A stretch of DNA of 14,546 nucleotides, taken from positions 1 through 14,546 of the forward strand of contig DAOUXE010000002.1 of the NCBI GenBank assembly GCA_030666765.1, written 5' to 3'. A program made the translations under genes and the position numbers. Within the stretch, counting starts at the first letter, position 1. Every line of letters begins with the position of its first letter. The stretch is from Methanosarcinales archaeon. GTDB taxonomy: Archaea > Halobacteriota > Methanosarcinia > Methanosarcinales > Methanogasteraceae. The notes below the pieces were generated by a model, which saw only the letters and a program-made list of their open reading frames with translations, did no database searches and was not told the origin of the DNA. Below, in pieces: positions 1 through 13,259 of the stretch.

Positions 1-942
1 CCTGTAGCCGTATATCTTATTACCCTTCGAATTTGTGTACAAATATTTGTAATCATCAAGCGATATCTCCAAAAGTTCTTCCGCCTGATTGTGTTTCGCA
101 GAAGCTACAAAATTCATTTGGGACGTTACATCTTTGATATTTACTTTTGAGTTGTTACCTTTGTCAAATACCAGTACCATGTCATCAGTCGTTATTTTCA
201 GATTGGTCAACCGTTCCGTGAGTGCATCCAGCAGTTCCGGGAATATCTTAGAATCATGTCTATTCCCCTCATAGACTTCGTGCATGAAGGGCACATTGTC
301 TTCGGATACGGCTAGCCCCATACACACCTGTTTCATATGGTTCCTGTACTGTTTGCTCTTCCCGTTCTGCGGTAGTTCTTCTCCTTTTGTGATGTAGTTG
401 AACCAGTTAGTTTCATCGAGGAAAAGTATCTGGGGCGTCATACCTTTCTCAATAAGCGCCTTGCACAAGTCATCTTCGATTTTCCTGCTGGTTTCGTGGT
501 CTACGTATTTGTAGTGGTTTAAGAAGTTCTGGCAGGTAAGTCTGTGCGGAAACTTCCACAGCAAATTCAATGATGATTTATCGAACCATTTCTGCATAGC
601 ATTCTCTGATAATGCCCCATCGCACTTTCCGATGATGTTTAAAAGGAGATATTCGCCAACTGTTAAGCCCTCCATCTTCTTCTTCTTGTTGGTGTGCCGG
701 TTTACGATGTCGATGAAGTTCAGTTCCTCGGATATGGCAAGGAGCGCGGCGGTTTTCCCATATTGGAAGGATGTTAGCTTGATATGTGGCAGTTCTGCTG
801 CCCTCTCTTTCAGTTCAACGATCTTTTTCGCAGTTCCGAGATACTTTTGCCACACCTGCTTGGGCTTGCCATCAACCCTTGCCATCTCAACGGCATACCA
901 ATAGATATGACCCTTGATCTTCTTCTTTCGCAATGACACCAT
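1..942 (-). CDS. IS1634-type (IS4 superfamily) DDE transposase, N-terminal 314 residues
   Basis: This reading frame stays open from the ATG at 942 (antisense) to base 1, so only the first 314 residues are in the window. Family members are usually about 550-600 residues long. A TAA lies in frame 9 bases upstream, so this is the first possible start. Residues 1-60 form a basic N-terminal region. The first catalytic Asp is probably D176 in FLDETNW, and the second D260 in LVFDKGNNS. Between them VPFMHEVYEGNRHDSKIF matches the segment that IS1634-family transposases carry before the second Asp. The third catalytic acidic residue would lie beyond the left edge. I see no frameshift or stop, so this half looks intact. 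The region is visibly more AT-rich than the cytochrome operon, as expected for a mobile element. The family call is from recognition of motifs and was not searched. Confidence 0.85.
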   Translation of the reverse strand, partial: MVSLRKKKIKGHIYWYAVEMARVDGKPKQVWQKYLGTAKKIVELKERAAELPHIKLTSFQYGKTAALLAISEELNFIDIVNRHTNKKKKMEGLTVGEYLLLNIIGKCDGALSENAMQKWFDKSSLNLLWKFPHRLTCQNFLNHYKYVDHETSRKIEDDLCKALIEKGMTPQILFLDETNWFNYITKGEELPQNGKSKQYRNHMKQVCMGLAVSEDNVPFMHEVYEGNRHDSKIFPELLDALTERLTNLKITTDDMVLVFDKGNNSKVNIKDVTSQMNFVASAKHNQAEELLEISLDDYKYLYTNSKGNKIYGYR

Positions 943-951
943 GTGGATACA

Positions 952-1034
952 TTAGGTCATACTACTATATATAGTTATCTGCATTAATCGATATGTAGCA
1001 TGGCATTATGCTGATATCAAAAGTTAGGTCATAC
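952..1034. repeat. Direct repeat TTAGGTCATAC, two copies 72 bases apart
   Basis: TTAGGTCATAC occurs at 952-962 and again at 1024-1034, flanking the palindromic TATA box of the transposase. It could be a transposase binding site, an internal repeat of the element's end, or chance in AT-rich DNA. The far end of the element would be needed to decide. Confidence 0.4.
964..975 (-). promoter_or_regulatory. TATA box of the transposase, perfect 12-base palindrome
   Basis: ACTATATATAGT is centred about 27 bases upstream of the transposase ATG at 942. That is the standard archaeal distance from TATA box to transcription start, so the transposase mRNA is probably leaderless. No Shine-Dalgarno sequence is visible before the ATG, which agrees. 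Because the box is palindromic it could also fire rightwards, but no gene starts at the matching distance on the plus strand. Confidence 0.55.
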
Positions 1035-1163
1035 AGCTTAAGAAACGGCAACAAGTCCGATGGCTAACGGTTTTTAAGAAAAATTGGAGGCTAATTTGCG
1101 TTTCTTTGAAAGTTAAGAAAAGTCAAAACATATGGGACTATACAACCGTCTTCGTTTCGAAAT

Positions 1164-1172
1164 AACTATAAT
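1164..1172 (+). promoter_or_regulatory. Candidate TATA box of the radical SAM gene
   Basis: AACTATAAT lies about 30-38 bases upstream of the ATG at 1202, which would place the transcript start a few bases before the start codon. No Shine-Dalgarno sequence is visible between them, which fits a leaderless or near-leaderless mRNA. The rest of 943-1201 contains no coding frame I can support. Confidence 0.4.
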
Positions 1173-1201
1173 CCCTGACGCAGAAAACCCACTGATCCAC
1201 A

Positions 1202-2149
1202 ATGCAGCACATATCCGAACTTGCGCGATGTAACCTCTGCGAATGGAGGTGTGGGGTAAACCGGCTCGAAGGTGAGCGCGGCGTATGTAGGGCAGGGATG
1301 CACCCCCTAATCGCGTACACGATGCTATCAGAGACGCTTTTTAGTTACTCAGTCACCATGCTCGGATGCAATTTTAGGTGTATCTACTGCAACGCATACC
1401 GGATATCGCAGTATCCTGATGCGCAATGGTTCTACCGGGATTATGTAACGCCAGCAGTGCTTGCAGATGAAACGATATCCAAAATGACACCAGACACCGA
1501 TAAGATCGGTTTCACGGGCGGCGAGCCAACGATTCATCTTCCCTATATCGAGGAGGTGGTGCAGGCGATACGAGAGAAGGGTACGGAGATCGGTGTGGGG
1601 ATTGCGACCAATGGTTTCTGCACACCAGAGACCTTGAAACGGGTGACCGATATAGCCACATCGATCTCTTTTGAGATCAAGGCTTATGACGATGATGTTC
1701 ACCGGATGCTGACCGGCGCACCATCCGCGCCAGTGCTCCGGAATGCAAAAGTCCTTGCTACAAGTGCCAGAGAGAGCATCCGTGTATTCAGGACTGTGGT
1801 GATACCGGGTATAACCGATCGTCAGGTACTAAAGATAGCGGCATTCATCGCTGACGTCGATCCAACGATACCGTATCGATTGATCGGGTTTCGACCTAAC
1901 TTCATATTGTACTACCATCCCGGACCCAGCAGGGCTCTGATGAACGATCTGACTGAGAAATGCAAGGATATCGGCCTCACCGACGTGGCATGGTCTGGAT
2001 ACTACCCAACCGAGATGCCGGGTGGCAGCGAGACGGAGATTGCCATGCAGTATCTCAAGCGTGCTGGCTGCCCTAAATATCCGAGATCATGCGGGGAATG
2101 CGAACTTAGGGACCGGTGTCCTGCATGTCTGCTCGAACCGTGGAGATGA
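1202..2149 (+). CDS. Radical SAM protein, PflA/AmmeMemoRadiSam-like, with extra N- and C-terminal cysteine clusters
   Basis: The 315-residue protein has the radical SAM signature CxxxCxxC at C56, C60 and C63 (GCNFRCIYC), which binds the [4Fe-4S] cluster that cleaves S-adenosylmethionine. The SAM-binding GGEP motif is at 106-109. An N-terminal cysteine set (C10, C13, C17, C29) resembles that of the pyruvate-formate-lyase-activase-like and AmmeMemoRadiSam enzymes of COG1180. The last 26 residues hold a second cluster (C290, C297, C300, C306, C309), which suggests auxiliary iron-sulphur or zinc binding. A TGA lies in frame 7-9 bases upstream of the ATG, which fixes this start. The gene stands alone between the insertion sequence and a convergent gene pair. 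No glycyl-radical enzyme or other obvious substrate is adjacent, so the reaction is unknown. The family is firm and the substrate is not. Confidence 0.9.
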   Translation: MQHISELARCNLCEWRCGVNRLEGERGVCRAGMHPLIAYTMLSETLFSYSVTMLGCNFRCIYCNAYRISQYPDAQWFYRDYVTPAVLADETISKMTPDTDKIGFTGGEPTIHLPYIEEVVQAIREKGTEIGVGIATNGFCTPETLKRVTDIATSISFEIKAYDDDVHRMLTGAPSAPVLRNAKVLATSARESIRVFRTVVIPGITDRQVLKIAAFIADVDPTIPYRLIGFRPNFILYYHPGPSRALMNDLTEKCKDIGLTDVAWSGYYPTEMPGGSETEIAMQYLKRAGCPKYPRSCGECELRDRCPACLLEPWR

Positions 2150-2313
2150 ATCGGGCGGTCTTGGCGGATCTCGCGGCTTGCGATGCTCGGCGAGTAGCAG
2201 ATGATGATGCACTTGCAGAGGTGGGTGACTTCCTCCCTGCTACAAGTAGCGGGGTCTTCTGCCGCGTATCTATAAAGAAAAAAAAGAGGGGAGAGGCTTT
2301 AAGCAAACGTTGA
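2146..2313 (+). CDS. Possible small ORF overlapping the radical SAM stop codon
   Basis: A 55-residue frame begins with an ATG that overlaps the radical SAM TGA (ATGA). Its first 30 or so residues are helix-like and acidic (DARRVADDDALAEVGDF), and codon choice there resembles the neighbours. Its end becomes lysine-rich because it runs over the A-tract that serves as the terminator of the opposite strand, and it overlaps the 3' end of the minus-strand lipoprotein gene by 15 bases. It has no spaced Shine-Dalgarno sequence, and I recognise no homologue. It could be a translationally coupled small protein, a gene remnant or chance. Confidence 0.2.
   Translation: MNRAVLADLAACDARRVADDDALAEVGDFLPATSSGVFCRVSIKKKKRGEALSKR
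2274..2290 (-). terminator. T-tract terminator of the minus-strand gene pair
   Basis: On the minus strand an uninterrupted run of eight T (the A-run at 2278-2285), followed by CTTTA, begins about 13 bases after the TAA of the small lipoprotein gene. Archaeal RNA polymerase terminates at such T-tracts without a strong hairpin. No convincing stem was seen. Confidence 0.6.
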
Positions 2314-2565
2314 ATCGTTTACCTCGCCCATAGCATCGATATCGTCAAGCCCTCCGAGCATATCCTCAAGTTCCGCAAGATCGCTCTCGAAACTATCCAG
2401 TTCATACTCTGTGAGTTCATCAGTGCCGGTTGCCGCTCCCGCTGGCGTATGCAGCATCCCTGGTACGGATTCCTGCCTCCCCTCCTGCGATCTATCGACG
2501 CAGCCCGAGCAGATTGCGAGCACCAGCCCCACAAGGATGAGTGCGATCACGTATCTGGCGTTCAT
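2299..2565 (-). CDS. Small acidic secreted lipoprotein, unknown function
   Basis: The 88-residue protein starts with a hydrophobic segment (residues 4-18) followed by CSGC, so C22 is the likely lipidated cysteine. The position -3 residue is Cys instead of the usual Leu, so the lipobox is slightly atypical. The mature part is about 66 residues. After a Ser/Gln/Gly-rich linker it ends in a strongly acidic helical stretch (residues about 50-78, with repeats of the form DLAELEDMLGGLDDID). Its ATG overlaps the end of the upstream 479-residue gene by 4 bases (ATGA), so the two are translated from one message. Export and surface anchoring are inferred from the leader. I recognise no family and assign no function. 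Confidence 0.75.
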   Translation of the reverse strand: MNARYVIALILVGLVLAICSGCVDRSQEGRQESVPGMLHTPAGAATGTDELTEYELDSFESDLAELEDMLGGLDDIDAMGEVNDSTFA

Positions 2566-4001
2566 GATGCGGCCCCGTTGTCAGCAGTTTCGGATTCGGT
2601 TTCATTGCCCGGTGTATCGGTATCTCCATCCCCAACCTCATCGGTTCCTGAATCCGACTCGTCTGCCAGATCATCTGCCGGTTCGTCTTCCGCTTCATCT
2701 GCTGAGTCGTCACCTGTAGATTCGTCCCCTTCAGAAACGCTGTTGGCTATACTGATCCTATGTTTATCACGCGGCTCCTGCCAGTCGCCTGATAAGCTCA
2801 CGTCACCACCAGATCCCTTCACCTGATATGCACCATCACCGACGAGAATAGCCCGCCCAGTTCCGGTCACAGTCAGATCGACTCCTGATCCGGCCAGCAC
2901 CACCGAAACGTCACTACCCGTAATATCTGCGGTGCCATTAAATCCGTGGTACATCGTCCATCTGTCGGATTGATCCTTCACGCCATTTCCTGTGACTGTG
3001 ATCTCCATGTCGCCTGTGCGGTCGCGTACCATCAGCGTACCATGGTCACACGAAAGCACGAGATCAAGCGAGCCGATGATCCATGCGGTTCCTGACCCAT
3101 TAGCATCGAGCGATCCGGTTCCATTAAGCATCACCGCACCGCCCATGTAATCTTCAAGTGCCCGTAACTCCTTAAACATCTCCCGGAGGATGTGATTCGC
3201 CTCTCTGATGCAGCGACTGGAGTTTTGGATATACTGCCGCACCTCACTGGAATTAAGCTCATCATTAGAGATCGCTTCCTTTGCACGTTCGTAGTTCTCC
3301 TCGACGCAAACGAGTTTCTCCTTGAAATCCTCCTGATTCTCTCTCAGATCCGTGGTATCGGCACCCTCGTCCTCAAGTTCGCCGATCTTCACGTCCAGTC
3401 GGTCTGAGATGTTGTTTGCCTTCATAAGATACAGCTCAATCCGCGCAGCGAGCATATACTTTGTGCAGTGCAGAATCTCCCTGCGACTCGATCTCCATTC
3501 CATATTGATCGACCGTGCGACCGACCTGATGTCAGCCGCGGTATCAGCACTACTCACCTCTGACTGGTATCCCTCGAGACTTAGTATATAACGGTCGACG
3601 TTTTCAGACGCGTTATCCGGCACCAGAAGGCGGTTGTCCTCGGCAAACTCGATCCGTTCCTGCAGAAGCTTTAGTCTCCCGATCATCAGATCGAGCATCT
3701 GTAGAAGACGGTCTTTTGCAGCGTCTACGAGCATCTGCTGGTTTTCAGGAGTCTTATTGTTCCGGTATGTCTCCCGCGCTCTCTGTAGATTGTCTCTGTT
3801 ATCTCTTCCGGTTGCTTGCGCATCGGCAGCCATGCCTATATGTCCTGTATGGACGCTTGCAACCTGTGCCTGTCCTGTAGTTTTGTTTACTTGCGCACCG
3901 TGTGTGTGCACTTCTTCGTCGTTGTCTGCAGCTGCAATGCACGGGATACACAGGCATGTTAGCAGCAGCGAAACGATGAAGAATGTTTTTATTCGGTTCA
4001 T
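2562..4001 (-). CDS. Secreted protein with helical bundle, glycine-rich beta region and acidic tail
   Basis: The 479-residue protein has a clear signal peptide (residues 1-25, cleavage near CIAAA/D). A histidine- and glutamine-rich linker follows (30-65). Residues about 70-285 form a long helical, heptad-like region rich in Glu, Lys, Arg and Leu. Residues about 288-405 hold repeated NGTG, NGSG, TGNG, GSGV, TGTG and GSGG turns between alternating hydrophobic residues, as in a beta-helix or beta-roll. The last 60 residues are almost only Asp, Glu, Ser, Thr, Gly and Ala. No transmembrane anchor or PGF-CTERM-type end is present, so it is probably released, or held by other surface proteins. Shine-Dalgarno GAGGT lies 7 bases before the ATG. 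It forms an operon with the lipoprotein and diverges from the cytochrome operon. The family is not recognised; a cell-surface role is inference. Confidence 0.85.
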   Translation of the reverse strand: MNRIKTFFIVSLLLTCLCIPCIAAADNDEEVHTHGAQVNKTTGQAQVASVHTGHIGMAADAQATGRDNRDNLQRARETYRNNKTPENQQMLVDAAKDRLLQMLDLMIGRLKLLQERIEFAEDNRLLVPDNASENVDRYILSLEGYQSEVSSADTAADIRSVARSINMEWRSSRREILHCTKYMLAARIELYLMKANNISDRLDVKIGELEDEGADTTDLRENQEDFKEKLVCVEENYERAKEAISNDELNSSEVRQYIQNSSRCIREANHILREMFKELRALEDYMGGAVMLNGTGSLDANGSGTAWIIGSLDLVLSCDHGTLMVRDRTGDMEITVTGNGVKDQSDRWTMYHGFNGTADITGSDVSVVLAGSGVDLTVTGTGRAILVGDGAYQVKGSGGDVSLSGDWQEPRDKHRISIANSVSEGDESTGDDSADEAEDEPADDLADESDSGTDEVGDGDTDTPGNETESETADNGAAS

Positions 4002-4030
4002 GTTCTTTACCTCTGGTTGTGTTGTGTTCG

Positions 4031-4040
4031 GTTATATGTT
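4031..4040 (-). promoter_or_regulatory. TATA box of the minus-strand secreted-protein operon
   Basis: On the minus strand AACATATAAC lies 30-39 bases upstream of the ATG at 4001. A Shine-Dalgarno GAGGT (antisense of 4009-4013) sits between the two. The expected transcript start is about 10 bases before the ATG. Confidence 0.5.
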
Positions 4041-4128
4041 CTCTCAGACATTTCTGCCCAAGTCCCACTAGAAGTTGTTAGGAGATAAGCATACTTTCGA
4101 TTTTCGGACTTTTCAACTCTTTGTAATG

Positions 4129-4177
4129 CTTTATCATCCTTTATCGATCGATGTAATTCAACTTAAATCTTTATGAT
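4129..4177. promoter_or_regulatory. Helically phased CTTTAT repeats between the divergent promoters
   Basis: CTTTATC begins at 4129 and 4139, and CTTTATGAT at 4169. The spacings are 10 and 30 bases, so all three lie on one face of the helix. The second copy runs into the palindrome ATCGATCGAT (4143-4152). The cluster lies between the TATA boxes of the two divergent operons, where a shared regulator could bind. The area is AT-rich, so chance is possible. Confidence 0.25.
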
Positions 4178-4246
4178 AAGTTCTTTGATGTCACGGGTAT
4201 GTGTGATGTGGGATGAGCGGGGATGCGCACATCTTTTAACCAGCAT

Positions 4247-4256
4247 CTTTAAATTA
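4247..4256 (+). promoter_or_regulatory. TATA box of the multiheme cytochrome operon
   Basis: CTTTAAATTA lies 39-48 bases before the ATG at 4295, giving an expected transcript start near 4275-4280 and a leader of about 15-20 bases. A Shine-Dalgarno AGGA at 4285-4288 sits 6 bases before the ATG. Just upstream, at 4211-4230, is a tandem pair of similar GGATG-containing 10-mers. Confidence 0.5.
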
Positions 4257-4294
4257 TTCCAAGACAGAATATCGCTTCAGGATCAGGAATAAAG

Positions 4295-7200
4295 ATGCTC
4301 ACGAGACTGCTATTGACCGCATCGATCTGTCTGCTCATCGCGTGCACAGCGGCTGCCATGCCACCATCCGTGGGCCACACCGACAACTACACCGTAGTTC
4401 TAACGTACGGGCAGACCCCGTATCAGATCGGATATCGCGCTTCCGGAAACGTTACTGCATGGAACTGGTGGGATACCGGCGATGGCATGCAGCAGCAGAA
4501 TCTAATACTTGCAATGGTGCTTGATAAGACCGCGCACCCGGTCGATAGACTGTCCCAGCCCAGTTTCACTCTCTCACAGACTCGGTTTCACGTGGGGATG
4601 AATACGCACTCATTAAAGGCGGATGACGATGGAATCGGCAATTACAGCAACAACATGGATATCTGGCACTGGATACCTCTCGACCTTGCCCGGTGTTCCA
4701 ACTCCGAACTTACATTTTATACCTGGTACCGGATAGTTCCGGGTGACTACGGCTATGTGAAAGTCTCGACCGATGGTGGGGATACGTGGACCAAGCTTGC
4801 GAAGTACACAAAATACCAGACAGGCATGCCAGTTAAGAAGAAGATTGATCTCAGCGCTTATGATGGAGAGGATATTCTCCTTGCATTCAACTTCGTATCC
4901 GATTCAAGCGGCGTTGATGAGGGCTGGTACATCGATGATATCGAGGTCGTTGCCAGCGGCATACAGTTTTTTAAGTGGCGATTGTTCGGAAAAACAATCT
5001 TTAGGGATGGTGCAACATCGATACCTTCCACACTCGTGGTCGATGTCTCGTATCCCTCATACCACTCTACCAAAACCGAGACGATAACGCTTCAGGAGTA
5101 TTCGAAGGGACTTTACGGCGGGATATTCTACTATGCAGCCAACGAGACCTATTCCGGCCGATACAATATCCAATTCGCAAACTCGATCGATGGCACCGAT
5201 CCTGTGTCGGTCGCGACGACCTTTAACACCACGCTCTGGGGCTGTCAGGCAAGCAATTGCCACGATGCATGGTCCCCGACGAACGATCCCTCCGAAAGGA
5301 ACCCCTGCGAGGTTGTTCATCCCGACAACATCACCACATCGACCGCAACCAACTGCTTAACCGCATGTCACACGCCTTCTGCATCCCAGTTCTTGCGCGC
5401 AACGCCCGTGCATCTCCACGAGATCGTGTACGGGCATTATGGTGGCTTTGTATGCGGAGACGCGGGTTGGATCGAGATATTTGACAAACCCAATAATGCG
5501 AATGTACGGATGTACCGCGACACCTCGGTCAAGCGACCGCTTGTGCAGGGCGCATTCAACCAGTCGTCACATGCATCCGCATCCGCACCTGTTGGCTGCA
5601 TCGACTGCCACACAAAGTTTGTCCACGATAAGACTGGTAGCGTCACGTATAAGGTTGCTCCACCCACCACCTTGTATGGAACAGATATCACCTACGGCGT
5701 TCATAGTAACGTTTCGTGCGAAAAATGCCACGGCAATCTATTGTATCCAACGTTTGCCTCCGGTGTCCATTCACTTAAGGGGACGCTCAACGGTTACGTA
5801 CCCGAGTTCATGAGTTACGAGGAGAGTACCGAGACCTATATAATCGATGTGAATGACGCGTTAGACATCAACGTGGCCGTTGTGGCGGAGGATACCGATC
5901 ACGAGTTCGTCTTGTCACTTGTGGGACCGGTTAACCGCAACAATACAAAACCCACTGACTTAAACGGAAGCGATCCATGGCGCGGCACATACTTGCTTCC
6001 AAGTGTCGATGGTACCGCAGTCTTTAGGGCTGGCGGGAAGATCTGCTATCCGTACGGGGAGTACTTAAACGTCGTGACCTTTGATACGGGTCCGCCGGAG
6101 CGTGGCACGTGGATCGTCAGGATCCTTTCCCGATCGACCGGGAAATTCAATTACACGATCACATCATCCAACTACAGTATCGCACGAAAGCCAATCATTC
6201 ACATCCCCTGGAACTGTAGCGAGTGTCATCAGACAAGCCCGCCGGAGGGATGCAATGGTGCGAAGACCAATCTTACGATACCTGACTGGGACAACTATGG
6301 CCTGGCGTACACGCATACCGATATCGATGACGATGGCAGCGACGATGTAACATGCAGGGCGTGCCACAACACACTCCACGACGTCGGCATACTCAACTGT
6401 GTGGACTGCCACCAGACCCCGCCTGGCGGACACGCTTCAATCTTTTCGGATTATCGGAATACAACATATACGGACTGCCTACGCTGCCATAACGACCCGC
6501 ACGACGAACCGGAATGCGCAGCCGGTGGCGACTGTGCCGACTGCCACTTATCAAGCGGAATGAATGCAACAGGCGGACTTCCGATCATCAGCGAGTTAGG
6601 TTTCTACAAAAGTGTGCATTTCAATATCACAGGTGACTTTGATGCCTCGAACAACACCACTATTAGTATGGTCTGCTGGGGCTGCCACAACAACTATTCA
6701 GAGCAGCTTCTGGATCCGAAGCACTTCAGGATCAAACCTGACTGTGTGGACTGTCACTTCAACGAAACCCCGCTAAACATGAAATACTTCCCGAGACCGC
6801 CGCGGCAGGCAGTTGAGCACCAGCCAGAAGGTATCAACGTGACAACACCAAACGCGAACTGCACGATCTGCCACAACAAGTCGCTGGTTCAGGTTCCAGG
6901 CGTGCCACCGACTACCGAGGTTAACAACCCGAGCGCGAGAAACTTCGTCTCGCACTATGCAAGACATCGGCCGGATATCATAGTCGATGACGGCACTGCC
7001 AGCAACTGCTCGTACTGCCACCGCGATGGAGGGCACGAGTTTGGCGGCGTCTTCGCGGACAAGGGCAATGCCAATATCACACATGGAGTGGACTGCGCGG
7101 CATGTCACGGACACGGTAGGATACATGATGACGTGTTCAAGGTGCCTGAGATGGTACCGGGCGACAATAATCTCTGCTTAGGGTGCCACGACCACATTAC

Positions 7201-8758
7201 AAACTGCACCATCGTGAGAGGTGTGTTCACTTCGAGCATTCACAGCGGAGCCAACTGTACTGACTGCCACACGCCATTACCGATCTCAATCGCCGGGAGT
7301 GTGAGGGCAGGAGGGAATAGGCCGCACCTGTTTGAGGTACCTCTGAAAGTAGAACGGATGAACGTCACCCTTGATTGGGCAAAAGGCGATCTTGACCTGA
7401 CCCTGAACGATTCGGACGGAAGAGAGATCAACCCGTCCGTAGCAGCGAGTGATCCGGACATTGATTATGTTGTAAATGAGACCCGTGAATACTATACACT
7501 GCATAGCCCAGCCAATGGAAATTGGACTGCCAGAGTAACCGGAATCACTCTTGGTGGAACCGAACCATATACAGTGGCAGTTGACATCGTGGTGAAACAT
7601 CCCGGCACCAAACCTCCTGGTTGCGAGGTCTGCCACGCAACCGATGATAAAGAGCATATCATGCCTAAGAACGCACCTCTGATCGCAGAGCACGTCACAA
7701 ACGGCACGCCGATGGATGCCGTGGTATGGACAGAGGCAAATTGTACGGGCTGTCATAGAAACGACATCTCAGACGGTCTTTTTATCATTAATAATAGAAC
7801 CAGAAAGGGCGCAACTAACGCAACCGTCTCACATTACGGAGTGCCTGATGTCCTTGACACCAGAGAATGTATCGACTGCCATGAGAACGACGATATTGGA
7901 AGGAAGTGGGGCGATGCTCCGGACCCGAGAAACATCACACGTTATGAGCGTATAGAAGATGCCAATGACATAGAGGAGACACTCCGAACAGGTGATGTCT
8001 GCAAACTCAAGAATGGCTACGAAATCACGGTCGGTCCGGTCAGTTCAACAGGGAGTAGCATCTGGGTCGATCTGACGCACAATGGAGTATCAGTCCAGAG
8101 GGAACTGGTAAGCGAGGGTGGAGTCTTCGAGTATGAGATCAAGAAAGACTGGATACGATCAAAGAGCAATGCCGGTGACGACCTCTATGGAACAGGACAT
8201 GAGACTTACAAACACAGAAGGTATGATGAAAGTGGCTACACCACCATCGTCGATCTTAAGGTCGATGATATCTTTACCAGCGGCATGATGGGCGTTGCCA
8301 CATTCAAGGGACTGGTCCTCAAATCCCGCATGCACATCGAGACCGAGGACAAGGCGTGCTACACATGCCATATCGATGGATACCGGTACTACGCTCCTGA
8401 GGACGGCGACAGCTATTTCGTTCTCAGAAACGGAGGTGCAGACGGTGATCACGACGATTCGGATGACATCACCATCGGACGGGTTCCGATCAACTTCACC
8501 GAACACGAGCGTAAGACGCTGTATACACGATCAAAATGGGATCTCGGCTACGGATATCTACTGCATATCACAGAGATCGATCTCGTGGGCAGAAAGGCAG
8601 TGGTGGAACTCTCAAGGGATGGCAGCATCCTCCAGCGCGAGGTCGTTTCCGAAGGTGGGATCTTCAGGTACAATACCACAATAACTGATAAAGAAGGGCA
8701 TATGAGGACAGATATAACGGTCTTTGAGATGCGGATTTCAGGGGTGTTCAGACGATGA
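4295..8758 (+). CDS. Giant secreted multiheme c-type cytochrome with adhesion and S-layer domains (MHC1)
   Basis: The 1487-residue protein starts with a signal peptide (1-21); LIAC at 14-17 could alternatively be a lipobox. Residues about 80-222 match the InhA/MAM-like beta-sandwich, with VSTDGGDTW and ending GWYIDDIEV at 210-218. Residues about 225-310 look like another beta-sandwich. I count 18 canonical CxxCH haem motifs between C435 and H1359, preceded by a CX4CH (317-323) and a CX3CH (354-359), so up to 20 c-type haems. Two PPC-like beta-sandwiches interrupt the haem series at about 505-645 and 1011-1103. Two S-layer (PF07752-type) domains lie at about 1217-1350 and 1385-1487, sharing a QRE-VVSEGG-F-Y core (1268 and 1447); the last haem lies between them. 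About 40 N-glycosylation sequons fit an extracellular location. It has no C-terminal anchor and stops with an ATGA overlap onto MHC2. The expected role is long-range electron transfer through the S-layer. Confidence 0.93.
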   Translation: MLTRLLLTASICLLIACTAAAMPPSVGHTDNYTVVLTYGQTPYQIGYRASGNVTAWNWWDTGDGMQQQNLILAMVLDKTAHPVDRLSQPSFTLSQTRFHVGMNTHSLKADDDGIGNYSNNMDIWHWIPLDLARCSNSELTFYTWYRIVPGDYGYVKVSTDGGDTWTKLAKYTKYQTGMPVKKKIDLSAYDGEDILLAFNFVSDSSGVDEGWYIDDIEVVASGIQFFKWRLFGKTIFRDGATSIPSTLVVDVSYPSYHSTKTETITLQEYSKGLYGGIFYYAANETYSGRYNIQFANSIDGTDPVSVATTFNTTLWGCQASNCHDAWSPTNDPSERNPCEVVHPDNITTSTATNCLTACHTPSASQFLRATPVHLHEIVYGHYGGFVCGDAGWIEIFDKPNNANVRMYRDTSVKRPLVQGAFNQSSHASASAPVGCIDCHTKFVHDKTGSVTYKVAPPTTLYGTDITYGVHSNVSCEKCHGNLLYPTFASGVHSLKGTLNGYVPEFMSYEESTETYIIDVNDALDINVAVVAEDTDHEFVLSLVGPVNRNNTKPTDLNGSDPWRGTYLLPSVDGTAVFRAGGKICYPYGEYLNVVTFDTGPPERGTWIVRILSRSTGKFNYTITSSNYSIARKPIIHIPWNCSECHQTSPPEGCNGAKTNLTIPDWDNYGLAYTHTDIDDDGSDDVTCRACHNTLHDVGILNCVDCHQTPPGGHASIFSDYRNTTYTDCLRCHNDPHDEPECAAGGDCADCHLSSGMNATGGLPIISELGFYKSVHFNITGDFDASNNTTISMVCWGCHNNYSEQLLDPKHFRIKPDCVDCHFNETPLNMKYFPRPPRQAVEHQPEGINVTTPNANCTICHNKSLVQVPGVPPTTEVNNPSARNFVSHYARHRPDIIVDDGTASNCSYCHRDGGHEFGGVFADKGNANITHGVDCAACHGHGRIHDDVFKVPEMVPGDNNLCLGCHDHITNCTIVRGVFTSSIHSGANCTDCHTPLPISIAGSVRAGGNRPHLFEVPLKVERMNVTLDWAKGDLDLTLNDSDGREINPSVAASDPDIDYVVNETREYYTLHSPANGNWTARVTGITLGGTEPYTVAVDIVVKHPGTKPPGCEVCHATDDKEHIMPKNAPLIAEHVTNGTPMDAVVWTEANCTGCHRNDISDGLFIINNRTRKGATNATVSHYGVPDVLDTRECIDCHENDDIGRKWGDAPDPRNITRYERIEDANDIEETLRTGDVCKLKNGYEITVGPVSSTGSSIWVDLTHNGVSVQRELVSEGGVFEYEIKKDWIRSKSNAGDDLYGTGHETYKHRRYDESGYTTIVDLKVDDIFTSGMMGVATFKGLVLKSRMHIETEDKACYTCHIDGYRYYAPEDGDSYFVLRNGGADGDHDDSDDITIGRVPINFTEHERKTLYTRSKWDLGYGYLLHITEIDLVGRKAVVELSRDGSILQREVVSEGGIFRYNTTITDKEGHMRTDITVFEMRISGVFRR
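8740..8746 (+). promoter_or_regulatory. Shine-Dalgarno that supports the MHC2 start at 8755
   Basis: AGGGGTG lies 8 bases before the ATG that overlaps the MHC1 stop. It supports the long form of MHC2 over a start at the next in-frame ATG (8833, residue 27), although the long form gives an unusually long N-terminal region before the signal helix. Confidence 0.55.
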
Positions 8759-11247
8759 GTAAGATTACGCGAATGGCACGAAATATAAGAGGGGATGGAT
8801 TTACTCGTGCCATCCACGCGGTCTACCTATTCATGTCATCCATTATAAACGCTACCAAGCGTACTGTCCCCTGGACGCCGAGGAAATGCCCTAAAAATAT
8901 ATTCATATTCGCAATCATCCTGGCGCTGATAATCACGATCGCGCCGCTTGCACCGGCAGCAGATAGCAATAGTAGCGCCAGTAACGGCACCAGTGCCGGA
9001 ACAACGTTCATCCGGATCGAGGATGCGTGGTTCATGTCTCCGGATCTTTGGGTCACGGACGCGGACAAGACCGTTAGTGGACACAACCTATCCGATCTGC
9101 TGAAAGACGAGGAATTCATGATCGGTGGCGAACCGGACACCTTCCATATAGATACGCTCCTCCATGGCGCGTTCGGTGGCGACTGCCTCGACTGCCACCA
9201 GATTGGCGGGATTACACCACCCGATGTCCAGATCGATATAGACGCATTCGGAAAGTCGGTACATGCAGGCCTCAACCGTAATGTCATATACAACGCGACC
9301 ATGACCAGTCTCCTTAACAAAGCGTGCTGGGCATGCCACAGCAACTTAACATCAGATGGTGTCGAGCCATACGATCACCCACCTGATTACTGGGATCCAA
9401 AACCGTGTGTCACATGCCACGAATATAACCTCTTCGATGCCCCGCCGATATACGAGCACTTCTACAAGGGCGGGGGCGGCGTGGGTATAGATATCAGAGT
9501 AGAGTGTGTCGATTGCCATTTCAACGGCACGGCTGAGCACACGAGAATCCCTGAGATGTCTTACGAGGCAGAGGCATCCCATTACGCATCGAGGGATGTA
9601 CTTCCGGCGACAGATAATTGTTCGGTCTGCCATCGGGATGTAGAGGGTGGCGCGGCGTTTGGGAATGCTTCACAGGTATTTGCTCATGACAAAGGCGGAT
9701 CATGCGAGGACTGCCACGGCGTTGTCGATACGTTCCATGACCACAAACTGGTGATACCACTTGAACGTACATGCAAAGCCTGTCACACCAGCGCGGACTC
9801 GGTGGAGAAATACGGGACTCCCGGACATATCAAGACACACTACCCCGGAGCGCCCGAAGGAAGCGTTGATACCACAATGGTCGATGAGACGCTTGTCTGT
9901 GATAAATGCCACAATGGGACGATCCATAGTCCATATCTCACCAGGCACCTGAATGCGAGCAACGAGACTGCGTTTAAGGGATACTGCTTCGACTGTCACG
10001 CAAAGGGGGGCACATTCCCGTACCCGTCCCGCACCCGGATCAGCAAGCTCAGTCACGGAAAGGAGGCGGAATGCATGGCTGTAAACTGTATCGAGCCGTG
10101 CCACAACGCAAGCGGTGTGAGCAGGTTCCACGAGCCGACCGATGTCGCGAGCGGGTACTTCGGGCTTGCGCCGAGTGGTGCGGGTGCAGACTGTACGGAC
10201 TGTCACCCAAAACATATGAGACTCGGCGAGTTCGAAGAAGAGGTTGATTGTCTCAAATGCCATCCCGAATACGGGGCAGCGCATTACGGCGAGGCGATCG
10301 TCGAAGCGGTTAACAAGACCTATACATGCGCGCTCTGCCACAACGAAAAGGCGGATCAGTATCACAACCTCACTTATACATACGGAGAGGGCGGGACCAA
10401 TGTGGACGAATCATGTTATACGTGCCATGCCCGCGACACGAACTTCACAGAGTCGCAGACCCTGACTTATGGCGCGGGAGAGGTGCGCGGCGGTGTCATG
10501 GTCGCAGGCGAGGTTAAGATGGTCGATGTGACAGAGGCGTTTACGTGTGCCGAGTGCCACAACGTCACAGACACGCCATTCCATTACAGCTCATATCCGC
10601 TCGGAAGCCCGCAGGACCCTGGATGGGATGGCTGGGTCGCAGGCGACAGGGTAAAAGATTGTAAGGACTGTCACACATATTATGGTGGGAAACCGCCGTT
10701 TAATGCGACCGATATGAGCGGCACTTCGCACGGATATGAAGAGGACTGTTATGTCTGTCACGGCGGCAGGGGTCCAATCACATTCCACACTCTCGAGGTC
10801 TTCGATGTGACTCCGCATGTCTCTGAGATCTCGATCACACCCGACCAGATCCATGCAGACGAGTCGGCGGTGCTGGACGCGAAGGTCGTGACCGGATGGA
10901 AGATGAAGGTGAGGTATATCGAGTATTTCGTTGATATACCCGGCGAGAAGGGCGAAGGAACTCCGCTCACGTTCACACGTACCGAGTATTACGGGCAGGC
11001 AACCGAAGCTACTGCGGTTGTCAATACAACCGGGTGGTCGCAGGGCAAGCACACAATCCTTGTCCAGTCGCTTGACTCACGCGGGATATGGAGCGATCCA
11101 AGACCGGTGATGCTTACCGTGACCCGACCAAAAGGCGTGCTCGAAGCGGCATTCCTTAAGAGGGAGATACTCTTTATAGGTGCAATAGCAATCATAATAC
11201 TAATTATCGCGCTATTGTATCGGATAAGGGGTAAAAAGATGAAATGA
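8755..11247 (+). CDS. Membrane-anchored multiheme c-type cytochrome (MHC2)
   Basis: The 830-residue protein has a basic N-terminal stretch of about 47 residues, then a hydrophobic signal helix (48-66) ending APAADS. Sixteen CxxCH motifs and one CX3CH (CIEPCH) lie between C144 and H669, so up to 17 c-type haems. Residues 144-344 align motif by motif with MHC1 747-965. Residues about 688-795 form an Ig-like beta-sandwich with EYFVDIPG and LVQSLDSRGIW, a type common in archaeal surface proteins. A transmembrane helix (about 804-822) and a basic tail RIRGKKMK end the protein. This topology puts the haems outside and the C terminus in the cytoplasm. The gene overlaps MHC1 upstream and the CcmF gene downstream by ATGA. 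The probable role is to pass electrons from the membrane quinone or methanophenazine pool to MHC1 in or beyond the S-layer; the partner is inferred from the operon. Confidence 0.93.
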   Translation: MSKITRMARNIRGDGFTRAIHAVYLFMSSIINATKRTVPWTPRKCPKNIFIFAIILALIITIAPLAPAADSNSSASNGTSAGTTFIRIEDAWFMSPDLWVTDADKTVSGHNLSDLLKDEEFMIGGEPDTFHIDTLLHGAFGGDCLDCHQIGGITPPDVQIDIDAFGKSVHAGLNRNVIYNATMTSLLNKACWACHSNLTSDGVEPYDHPPDYWDPKPCVTCHEYNLFDAPPIYEHFYKGGGGVGIDIRVECVDCHFNGTAEHTRIPEMSYEAEASHYASRDVLPATDNCSVCHRDVEGGAAFGNASQVFAHDKGGSCEDCHGVVDTFHDHKLVIPLERTCKACHTSADSVEKYGTPGHIKTHYPGAPEGSVDTTMVDETLVCDKCHNGTIHSPYLTRHLNASNETAFKGYCFDCHAKGGTFPYPSRTRISKLSHGKEAECMAVNCIEPCHNASGVSRFHEPTDVASGYFGLAPSGAGADCTDCHPKHMRLGEFEEEVDCLKCHPEYGAAHYGEAIVEAVNKTYTCALCHNEKADQYHNLTYTYGEGGTNVDESCYTCHARDTNFTESQTLTYGAGEVRGGVMVAGEVKMVDVTEAFTCAECHNVTDTPFHYSSYPLGSPQDPGWDGWVAGDRVKDCKDCHTYYGGKPPFNATDMSGTSHGYEEDCYVCHGGRGPITFHTLEVFDVTPHVSEISITPDQIHADESAVLDAKVVTGWKMKVRYIEYFVDIPGEKGEGTPLTFTRTEYYGQATEATAVVNTTGWSQGKHTILVQSLDSRGIWSDPRPVMLTVTRPKGVLEAAFLKREILFIGAIAIIILIIALLYRIRGKKMK

Positions 11248-13259
11248 CCTGTGGGGGAATTTTACTATACGCGGCACTGATATGCGAGCTGCTTGCAGCG
11301 GTAGTGCTGCTATTATACGGTAGATACCGGATCAATCCCACCCACATCTTGACCGTTACACGGCTGGCGCTGTTTTTCCAGAGCGGTGCGATAGGGCTGA
11401 TGACCTACTATTTCATCAAGGATAATTTCAGCGTTCTTTATGTGTGTCAGTACTCTGCAAGCTGGATGCCGTTTCCGTACAAGATAGCGGCGGTCTTTGC
11501 AGGGCAGCAGGGAACGTATCTGTTGTGGGCATGGGCATCGGTCCTTGCGGTTTGGTCCACCATAGAGGACTACGGATTTAAGAATCCGCTGCACCGGAAG
11601 ACCGAACTCATAGCGATGATCGTATCGATCTTCATCCTCTTACTCTGCATCAAGTCCGCGCCGTTCATACCGATCACTGAGCTGACCAATCAGGCTCCTA
11701 CCCCTACAGAGGGCAACGGATTAAATCCGGTCTTCATCACGATATGGATGGTCATCCATCCGTTCGTCACGTTCATAGCTTATGCTGCGACAGTCGTTCC
11801 TGCATCTGCCGGAGCAGCACATCTCATCACCGGCAGGGACGGATGGCACAGGATATCGCGTCAATGGCTCAGAATAACATGGTTGTTTCTTTCAGTATGC
11901 ATGGTGACAGGCGGCGTATGGGCATACAAGCTCGTAGGATGGGGGAGTTTCTGGAACTGGGACCCTGTGCAGACCGCGACACTCATATTGTGGATGCTCG
12001 TAACCGCGGTGTTGCACATACTTGCCAGGTATCATGAGGGTCGGGAATATACGACTGCTGCGCCAGTAGCAACGATATTCTTATTCATAGCCACCATCTA
12101 CGTGACACTGGTTACCAGGCAAGGGATTATCCACTCGCTTCATGACTTTCCTGGAACGCCAACGTACGGATTGCTGGTCGCTGGCATAATCGTTGCCAGC
12201 ATTGTTGCAACCGGACTCGGGATGAGTAAGTTTCTACGAACCCGCGTGACAAACGTCCCTACAAAATCCATCTTTTCGACGCGTAATACATTTTTATGGA
12301 CGAATATCCTGCTGATTACGATCGCTTTCGTATGCTTCTGGGGACTTACATACAGTTTTGTCTCGCAACATCTCTTCAGTACGAAGGTCATAATCCCGCC
12401 AGAGTTTTTCAATATCTGGTGTTTTATTCCGGCGATACTGATCGTACTGCTGGCAGGTGTGTGTACAGCGTATGGCAGGATCCACAATACTTCTCTTAAA
12501 TATATACTGTTTTTCGTATTCGCACTTTCGCTTTTGCTGGCGATGTTGCCGGGTCATAAACTGCTGGATAGCGGGAGCGACTTTTATCAGACATCTTCAA
12601 TAATTATAAAGACACTCGGATCAGTCTCGGTGTGGGCGTTTGTGCCGACGTTTCTGTTTGCGTTTATTACGATCCTGTCCAAGCTCTCAATGGATCTCAG
12701 ACGGATGCACGGGCGCATGAGGTTTCGGACGACAGGGATCAACCTGATCCATATCGGTTTCATACTGGTGATAGCAGGCGCAATCGTCACCACATCATTT
12801 GATGTCTCTTCAAGCGTCGTGTACGATGTAGATGAACTGAGTACACAGAAAGATATGGGAAACGGCTGGAGCATAGAGCTTTCCGAGTTTGACGTCTTCC
12901 AGAATCCTGATGGCACATGGACGCAGACTGCGCATTTAAATGTCTATAAGGATGGTAAGCCCTACTGCTCCGGCACGACCGGATTTGCCAGGACCAATCA
13001 CTTCGGGGACGTTCATGATCCGATGATCAATCGTGGTATGGTTTGTGATGTATATGCGCAGTTCAGCGGGACGCGGTCTCACATATCTACCGAAGCTATA
13101 ATCCCGATAAGCGTCAAAGTCATACCCGGGGTATCAATGCTCTGGACCGGATGCATTCTTATGCTGGTCGGTATACTCTGTATCATCCTATCGATCTACC
13201 TGCTGATGATTAAGAAGAGAGAACTGCTTACACGATCCACACGCGGTGACGTTACATGA
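11244..13259 (+). CDS. ccmF: CcmF-type cytochrome c haem lyase subunit
   Basis: The 671-residue polytopic membrane protein has the architecture of CcmF, within the usual length of about 600-700 residues. The tryptophan-rich WWD region is at 231-247 (VGWGSFWNWDPVQTATL). The four expected haem-ligand histidines appear as H172 (IHPFVTFIAY), H258 (just after the WWD segment), H300 (SLHDF, matching the canonical SVHAF) and H503 (INLIHIGF). The extracytoplasmic domain before the last helix spans about 520-635, and the final helix about 640-658. CcmF receives haem from holo-CcmE and ligates it to CxxCH motifs outside the membrane. In bacteria the WWD segment usually reads GWGG-WW-WDPVENAS; here Glu is replaced by Gln. 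No CcmA, B, C, E or H gene is in the window. The start overlaps the MHC2 stop (ATGA) and the end overlaps rnp2 (ATGA). Its position suggests it matures the two cytochromes made from the same mRNA. Confidence 0.88.
   Translation: MTCGGILLYAALICELLAAVVLLLYGRYRINPTHILTVTRLALFFQSGAIGLMTYYFIKDNFSVLYVCQYSASWMPFPYKIAAVFAGQQGTYLLWAWASVLAVWSTIEDYGFKNPLHRKTELIAMIVSIFILLLCIKSAPFIPITELTNQAPTPTEGNGLNPVFITIWMVIHPFVTFIAYAATVVPASAGAAHLITGRDGWHRISRQWLRITWLFLSVCMVTGGVWAYKLVGWGSFWNWDPVQTATLILWMLVTAVLHILARYHEGREYTTAAPVATIFLFIATIYVTLVTRQGIIHSLHDFPGTPTYGLLVAGIIVASIVATGLGMSKFLRTRVTNVPTKSIFSTRNTFLWTNILLITIAFVCFWGLTYSFVSQHLFSTKVIIPPEFFNIWCFIPAILIVLLAGVCTAYGRIHNTSLKYILFFVFALSLLLAMLPGHKLLDSGSDFYQTSSIIIKTLGSVSVWAFVPTFLFAFITILSKLSMDLRRMHGRMRFRTTGINLIHIGFILVIAGAIVTTSFDVSSSVVYDVDELSTQKDMGNGWSIELSEFDVFQNPDGTWTQTAHLNVYKDGKPYCSGTTGFARTNHFGDVHDPMINRGMVCDVYAQFSGTRSHISTEAIIPISVKVIPGVSMLWTGCILMLVGILCIILSIYLLMIKKRELLTRSTRGDVT

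Follow-up and report, generated by a model that had tools for sequence, protein, structure and literature searches.

The stretch analysed here, referred to as the window, comprises 14,546 nucleotides of contig DAOUXE010000002.1 (GCA_030666765.1) from a Methanosarcinales archaeon, and it is contig 188 of a genome of 1.5 Mb with 56% completeness. It carries two consecutive genes for multihaem cytochromes, p1 and p2, and a gene for a haem lyase (Table 1). We describe how p1 and p2 divide between them the surface layer (S-layer) cytochrome MHC-B of anaerobic methanotrophic archaea (ANME), and propose how the two chains may be joined. If the proposal is right, it bears on the passage of electrons across the S-layer in methane-oxidising archaea.

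Domains of the gene pair and correspondence to MHC-B

The 20 haem motifs of p1 (18 CxxCH, one CX3CH, and one CX4CH) agreed with the count in an earlier note on this gene, and the mean number of CxxCH motifs in shuffled p1 was 0.08. The earlier note had also suggested an InhA/MAM-like module, and the profile search recovered it: PF20773 (InhA-like MAM) scored 46.1 against a cutoff of 26.9 and fell in the region before residue 317, which was free of haem motifs; the NCBIfam choice_anch_J match was below its cutoff. The S-layer family PF07752, likewise anticipated, matched with 70.8 bits (cutoff 30). The duplicated S-layer domains with a haem motif between them were found as two sandwiches with CYTCH in the linker, except that the second sandwich lacked its last strand. 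Of two PPC-like inserts claimed, the one at approximately 1000–1100 was backed by the p1 model and by structure comparison, whereas the one at 505–645 was not retained, as residues 433–645 gave no PPC match. HExxH is the zinc motif of the M6 peptidase family; it was found nowhere in p1, and peptidase activity was rejected because of its absence. In the hydropathy analysis, p1 had no C-terminal hydrophobic segment. The signal peptide of p1 (window 4295–4361) contained a lipobox-like LIAC at residues 14–17, also seen in the orthologs P0002–P0005, and to judge from its sequence this motif could be a lipid anchor.

Table 1. Features of the p1–p2 locus, in window coordinates
Feature	Position	Strand	Remarks
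p1	4295..8758	+	S-layer cytochrome of 1487 aa, corresponding to the N-terminal half of MHC-B; start resembles a signal peptide
InhA-like MAM (choice-of-anchor J type) domain	4676..4972	+	Residues 128–226; PF20773 and 4yu5 match
Variant haem motifs	5243..5371	+	CX4CH (residue 317) and CX3CH (residue 354); motif scan
PPC-type beta-sandwich	7292..7594	+	Residues 1000–1100, within haem+PPC module of ~280–310 aa
First S-layer sandwich of p1	7970..8329	+	Last strand, residues 1332–1345
Linker haem motif CYTCH	8357..8371	+	Residue 1355, between the two S-layer sandwiches; motif scan
Second S-layer sandwich of p1, truncated	8477..8758	+	Ends ..VFRR* ahead of last strand
p1 stop codon overlapping p2 start codon	8755..8758	+	ATGA
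p2	8755..11247	+	Membrane-anchored cytochrome, corresponding to the C-terminal half of MHC-B; 16 CX2CH and one CX3CH motif
Signal-peptide-like hydrophobic segment of p2	8884..8964	+	Hydropathy
Proposed donor strand TFIRIEDAWFMSPD	9004..9045	+	p2 residues 84–97; counterpart of last S-layer strand in fused homologs
C-terminal membrane helix of p2	11146..11232	+	Hydropathy
CcmF/NrfE-type haem lyase	11244..13259	+	ATGA overlap with p2

The passages of Chadwick et al. 2022 (PMC9012536) on MHC-B describe an S-layer domain with haem in its linker, an N-terminal peptidase M6-like region free of haem, a C-terminal membrane helix, and an adjoining CcmF2, and they include ANME-2c in the lineages that carry MHC-B. 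p1 shares with MHC-B the S-layer domain, the haem-free N-terminal M6-like region, the single linker haem, and a nearby CcmF-type gene; from its position, the haem lyase of the window probably represents CcmF2. p1 differs in that the membrane helix, described as part of the MHC-B protein, sits in p2, as does the last S-layer strand. Because the C-terminal hydrophobic segment ends p2 and not p1, the gene pair rather than p1 alone corresponds to MHC-B. The idea of a conduit through the S-layer in an ANME context, voiced in the earlier note, fits both this correspondence and the ANME-2c family of the window. One further claim of that note did not hold, and one point was missed. The domain order, considered undescribed, is that published for ANME MHC-B, and a novel domain architecture was rejected. 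The point missed is that p1 is not the whole conduit, as the following gene encodes both the half anchored in the membrane and the last strand of the p1 S-layer domain; taking p1 as such would overlook 17 of the 37 haem motifs and the anchor.

The assignment to ANME-2c was made through relatives of p1 bearing names, which were ANME-2 cluster archaea E20ANME2 and HMMV-459B1 and Methanosarcinales archaeon UBA203. Since PMC9012536 assigns these, by accession, to ANME-2c (E20, HMMV-459B1, and COP1), we regarded the family of the window (f1) as the ANME-2c family. Family f2 was linked to GB37, the source of protein P0007 (2159 aa), which spans both p1 and p2. For the other families, we infer that f3 is ANME-2a/b, f4 is Methanoperedens, and f5 is Methanosarcinaceae with ANME-3.

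The split is not mentioned in the text on MHC-B in PMC9012536, a figure of which may draw two genes, or in the relevant passages of PMC10874420, PMC12372872, PMC11607397, and PMC12175726, or in related titles and the beginnings of abstracts. Within this literature, the domain order is known, and no description was found of a form in which two genes share the split domain and the partner supplies the strand that is lacking.

Position, distribution, and history of the break

The genome searches covered 185 genomes of the order, scoring the best few candidates per genome, so copies may be missed, and the junction survey took 48 stretches picked among the stronger matches. The junctions of 46 loci including the window were classified. 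Four of them (L052, L053, L060, and L062) were MHC-A-like or hybrid, and all four were contiguous. Among the remaining 42, a single open reading frame (ORF) crossed the junction in 16 loci of 16 genomes (four in f2, six in f3, three in f5, and three in f4). p1 was directly followed by p2 in ten loci of f1 (the window and L041–L049) and nine of f4 (L069–L077, seven genomes), giving 19 adjacent split pairs with the same break from 17 genomes and two families; the f4 genomes examined had either the fused or the split form. A CcmF relative was found at 19/19 adjacent split pairs and 16/16 fused loci. The f1 genes overlapped by four bases in different frames at nine of 11 junctions, and in f4 the stop was followed by a start 3–7 bases on at eight of nine.

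The other seven loci had only parts of the pair. p2 was accompanied by a short remnant of the p1 tail alone in L084 and by such a remnant, with no full p1 in 4.4 kb upstream, in L082. L030 and L050 had p1 with no p2 downstream; L030 was rejected as a fused locus, since its weak p2 match falls inside p1. p2 was near the contig start in L083 and L085. L086, cut by a contig end, stands outside the counts, as do L051, L067, and L068, which were left out of the junction classification. Two genomes combined such loci, with p1 and p2 apart (L030 and L084 in G036; L050 and L082 in G039); there, p2-ccmF was found with no full p1 upstream, and p1 was on a separate contig. As a separate observation, the N-terminal part of MHC-B in L065 (G005, f2) formed an ORF of 610 aa apart from the rest (1551 aa), at a different break.

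The alignment showed a conserved VF, LF, MF, or IF shortly before the end of all 19 p1s. Beyond this point, the fused proteins ran on for a few residues (approximately 20 in two of them) and then entered a strand of the type IILKDVRLIAGE. At the aligned place, p2 had one of type VQIEDAWFMSPD in f1 and IVIEDARHISNE in f4, which followed a signal peptide and a linker. The break is located inside the S-layer domain, between strands of the second sandwich, at the same place in both split families. The added-fragment alignment did not place the head of the p2 of the window. The PF07752 match ended at profile position 189–190 in all five split p1s scanned, the second sandwich of the window ending at 190, and it reached 207–231 in contiguous L063, L054, P0007, P0015, and L006; for P0013, also contiguous, the best stretch was the first sandwich, ending at 201. 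When a profile of 15 relatives was aligned to the crystal structure 3u2g, the match extended across this strand. The model of L006, a contiguous MHC-A-like or hybrid protein, had the strand at 439–449, and the p1 model showed a counterpart of it only in the first sandwich. The second sandwich of p1 may accordingly be described, from the alignments and models, as a putative acceptor without its last strand.

The strand was also recognizable by itself. We built a 14-column profile from the 16 fused proteins with weights by family and moved it along each complete p2 ORF; of the 23 ORFs, 20 scored highest at the junction strand, and in the other three (L047, L073, and L077) this strand ranked second. 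For 12 of the 14 f1 p2s, the pooled ratio of nonsynonymous to synonymous substitution rates (dN/dS) was 0.156 in the strand segment versus 0.437 in the next 19 codons, and within genus g1 (eight rows) it was 0.242 versus 0.336 in the following codons. L082 and L083 were dropped from the conservation and dN/dS analyses by a motif filter, though both have the strand. The linker ahead of the strand was variable. The strand was near the mature N-terminus of p2, as in donor-strand complementation, and it stood closer behind the signal peptide in f4 than in f1.

The history of the split was examined in a tree of the S-layer region with 38 rows, five of them MHC-A-like or hybrid rows used as the outgroup; L047, L050, L075, L084, L087, and loci lacking an S-layer match were not included. 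Fused MHC-B formed one clade (support 95/97). Split MHC-B formed another (89/72, not starred), of which f1 and f4 were the two halves, with a program warning of long branches. Since the outgroup proteins are contiguous, the history is most simply explained by a single ancient split; two independent origins were not favoured given the one clade of split rows, to which the support values and the warning above apply. The trees computed for the p2 half and for CcmF contained three groups and no outgroup and cannot decide the number of origins.

Proposed joining of the two chains and its alternatives

We propose, with a probability of roughly 0.68, that the ANME MHC-B conduit is here encoded by two genes and that a strand of p2 completes the S-layer domain of p1 by donor-strand complementation. 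The domains, the break position, the strand in p2 and its conservation, and the shared gene order were established from sequence; physical insertion, orientation, electron flow, and the role of the MAM domain are what we infer from them. p1 would be exported with its MAM domain, its 20 haem motifs, and a C-terminal S-layer domain whose second sandwich is one strand short. p2 would be exported as well, held in the membrane by its C-terminal helix, and would present 17 haem motifs and, shortly after the signal peptide, the missing strand. Insertion of this strand into the open sandwich would join the chains non-covalently inside the S-layer domain, and electrons would pass from the membrane through the p2 haems to the S-layer plane at the p1 linker haem, and on through the p1 haems to the MAM domain outside. 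Strand donation would account for a break that separates two strands of one sandwich, for the presence of the missing strand near the N-terminus of the partner, and for its retention in both lineages.

Known systems resemble parts of this arrangement. The S-layer sandwiches share their fold with the MA0829/DUF1608 S-layer protein of Methanosarcina acetivorans (3u2g), in which a single chain runs through the strand in question and which is not known to contain haems. In Sulfolobus threads, an archaeal precedent (PMC11607397; see also PMC9715654), and in chaperone-usher pili, a subunit fills a gap in the sheet of another with its N-terminal beta-strand; those subunits polymerise into a filament, whereas in the proposal for the window the strand would link two unlike cytochromes inside an S-layer domain. 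In MtrCAB of Shewanella, cytochromes also meet within the outermost layer, but the system of the window has no porin, and the layer is protein. The MtrCAB analogy is drawn in a passage of PMC9012536.

Several observations weigh against the proposal. The mean predicted local distance difference test score (pLDDT) of the two models was low (58.7 and 53.2), and in the p1 model it was 43–68 for the first-sandwich strand and 50–75 for the last strands of the second sandwich. L006 grouped with MHC-A-like or hybrid rows and not with fused MHC-B, and it is on the same contig as L060. In the first ten f1 p2s, 13–27 residues, often of low complexity, separated the hydrophobic core of the signal peptide from the strand. 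Conservation was slightly lower in the strand than in the median segment of p2 (0.792 versus 0.838), with 202 of 740 segments at or below the value of the strand. Not every p1–p2 pair is intact, because the p2 of L042 (G028) has an in-frame TAG in this assembly, which ends the ORF at 757 aa ahead of the membrane helix, and the p1 ORF adjoining p2 in L075 has just 126 aa. Finally, the separation of p1 and p2 in two genomes could mean that their mutual need was lost.

The MAM-like N-terminus may act in addition as an adhesin or matrix binder, which would supplement the conduit and not replace it. Secreted binding proteins commonly contain InhA-like MAM and PPC-type sandwiches, and matches to both are present in p1. 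We retain this role as a tentative one, with the odds against it. It is rather unlikely that p1 and p2 are separate cytochromes passing electrons by ordinary contact, with the truncated sandwich tolerated and the p2 strand an ancestral leftover. Most of p2 is conserved at least as well as the strand, and the two genomes with the genes apart would suit such an arrangement; against this, the strand is under purifying selection behind a variable linker, and it is recognizable in both split clades despite the long branches separating them, with the break at the same place in both. A full-length fused protein might also be made by read-through of the stop codon or by frameshifting, as p1 and p2 share a frame with one TGA between them in seven of nine f4 loci. 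We consider this very improbable given the different frames of most f1 junctions, the signal-peptide-like segment that would become an internal membrane segment of the fused product, the separation of the genes in two genomes, and the common use of TGA as a stop (71/92 and 29/58 six-frame ORFs of at least 250 aa in the loci retrieved, some loci counted twice). A sequencing or assembly error is refuted in our view, even for loci that are mostly from metagenome assemblies, because the break recurs in all 19 adjacent pairs of both families together with an added signal-peptide-like segment.

Strand donation, if true, would mark the second S-layer sandwich, beside the linker haem, as the meeting point of the membrane-anchored and S-layer parts, and would make possible a specific and cheap test for organisms without pure culture. 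The wider view that two archaeal lineages assemble an S-layer conduit from two secreted cytochromes snapped together in this way, with the outer half exchangeable on an anchored plug, seems to us evenly balanced between true and false. An exchangeable p1, with its MAM domain and variable haem+PPC modules, would let cells alter the length of the conduit or its partner end with the anchor unchanged.

Variable modules and other genes

The haem+PPC unit, repeating at approximately 280–310 aa, was found once in the window, L001, and P0004–P0006 (a weaker single copy in P0007–P0009), twice in L002, P0003, and L003, and three times in P0002; none was found in P0010–P0012 at the threshold used. Because its copy number varies, the conduit length varies on the p1 side. 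Compared with the copies of the multi-copy proteins, the module of the window most resembled the second copy of L002 (80%). The modules of L001, P0004, and P0005 most resembled the third copy of P0002 (64–67%), and the first two copies of P0002 were 90% alike. The multi-copy modules (P0002, P0003, L002 at 9837–15221, and L003 at 3–5033) showed mosaic relations between orthologs.

PF22113 (MtrC/MtrF domain II/IV) was above its cutoff in the p1 orthologs P0002 (732–920), P0003, and P0006 and in the p2 of L069 (3927–6170, minus strand), and the Pfam scan did not list it for p1 or p2 of the window. Upstream of p1 and divergent from it, the window encodes a 479-aa protein with a signal-peptide-like start (2562–4001, minus strand), for which the Pfam scan gave no match above cutoff. 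A transposase-like ORF (1–942, minus strand; DDE_Tnp_1 below cutoff) is cut by the contig end. In f4, separate ORFs of 739–1196 aa (L088–L094) matched p1 residues ~30–880 with 31–34% identity, and BLAST at E 1e-8 did not match them to its S-layer part; L091 and L092 have neighbouring copies.

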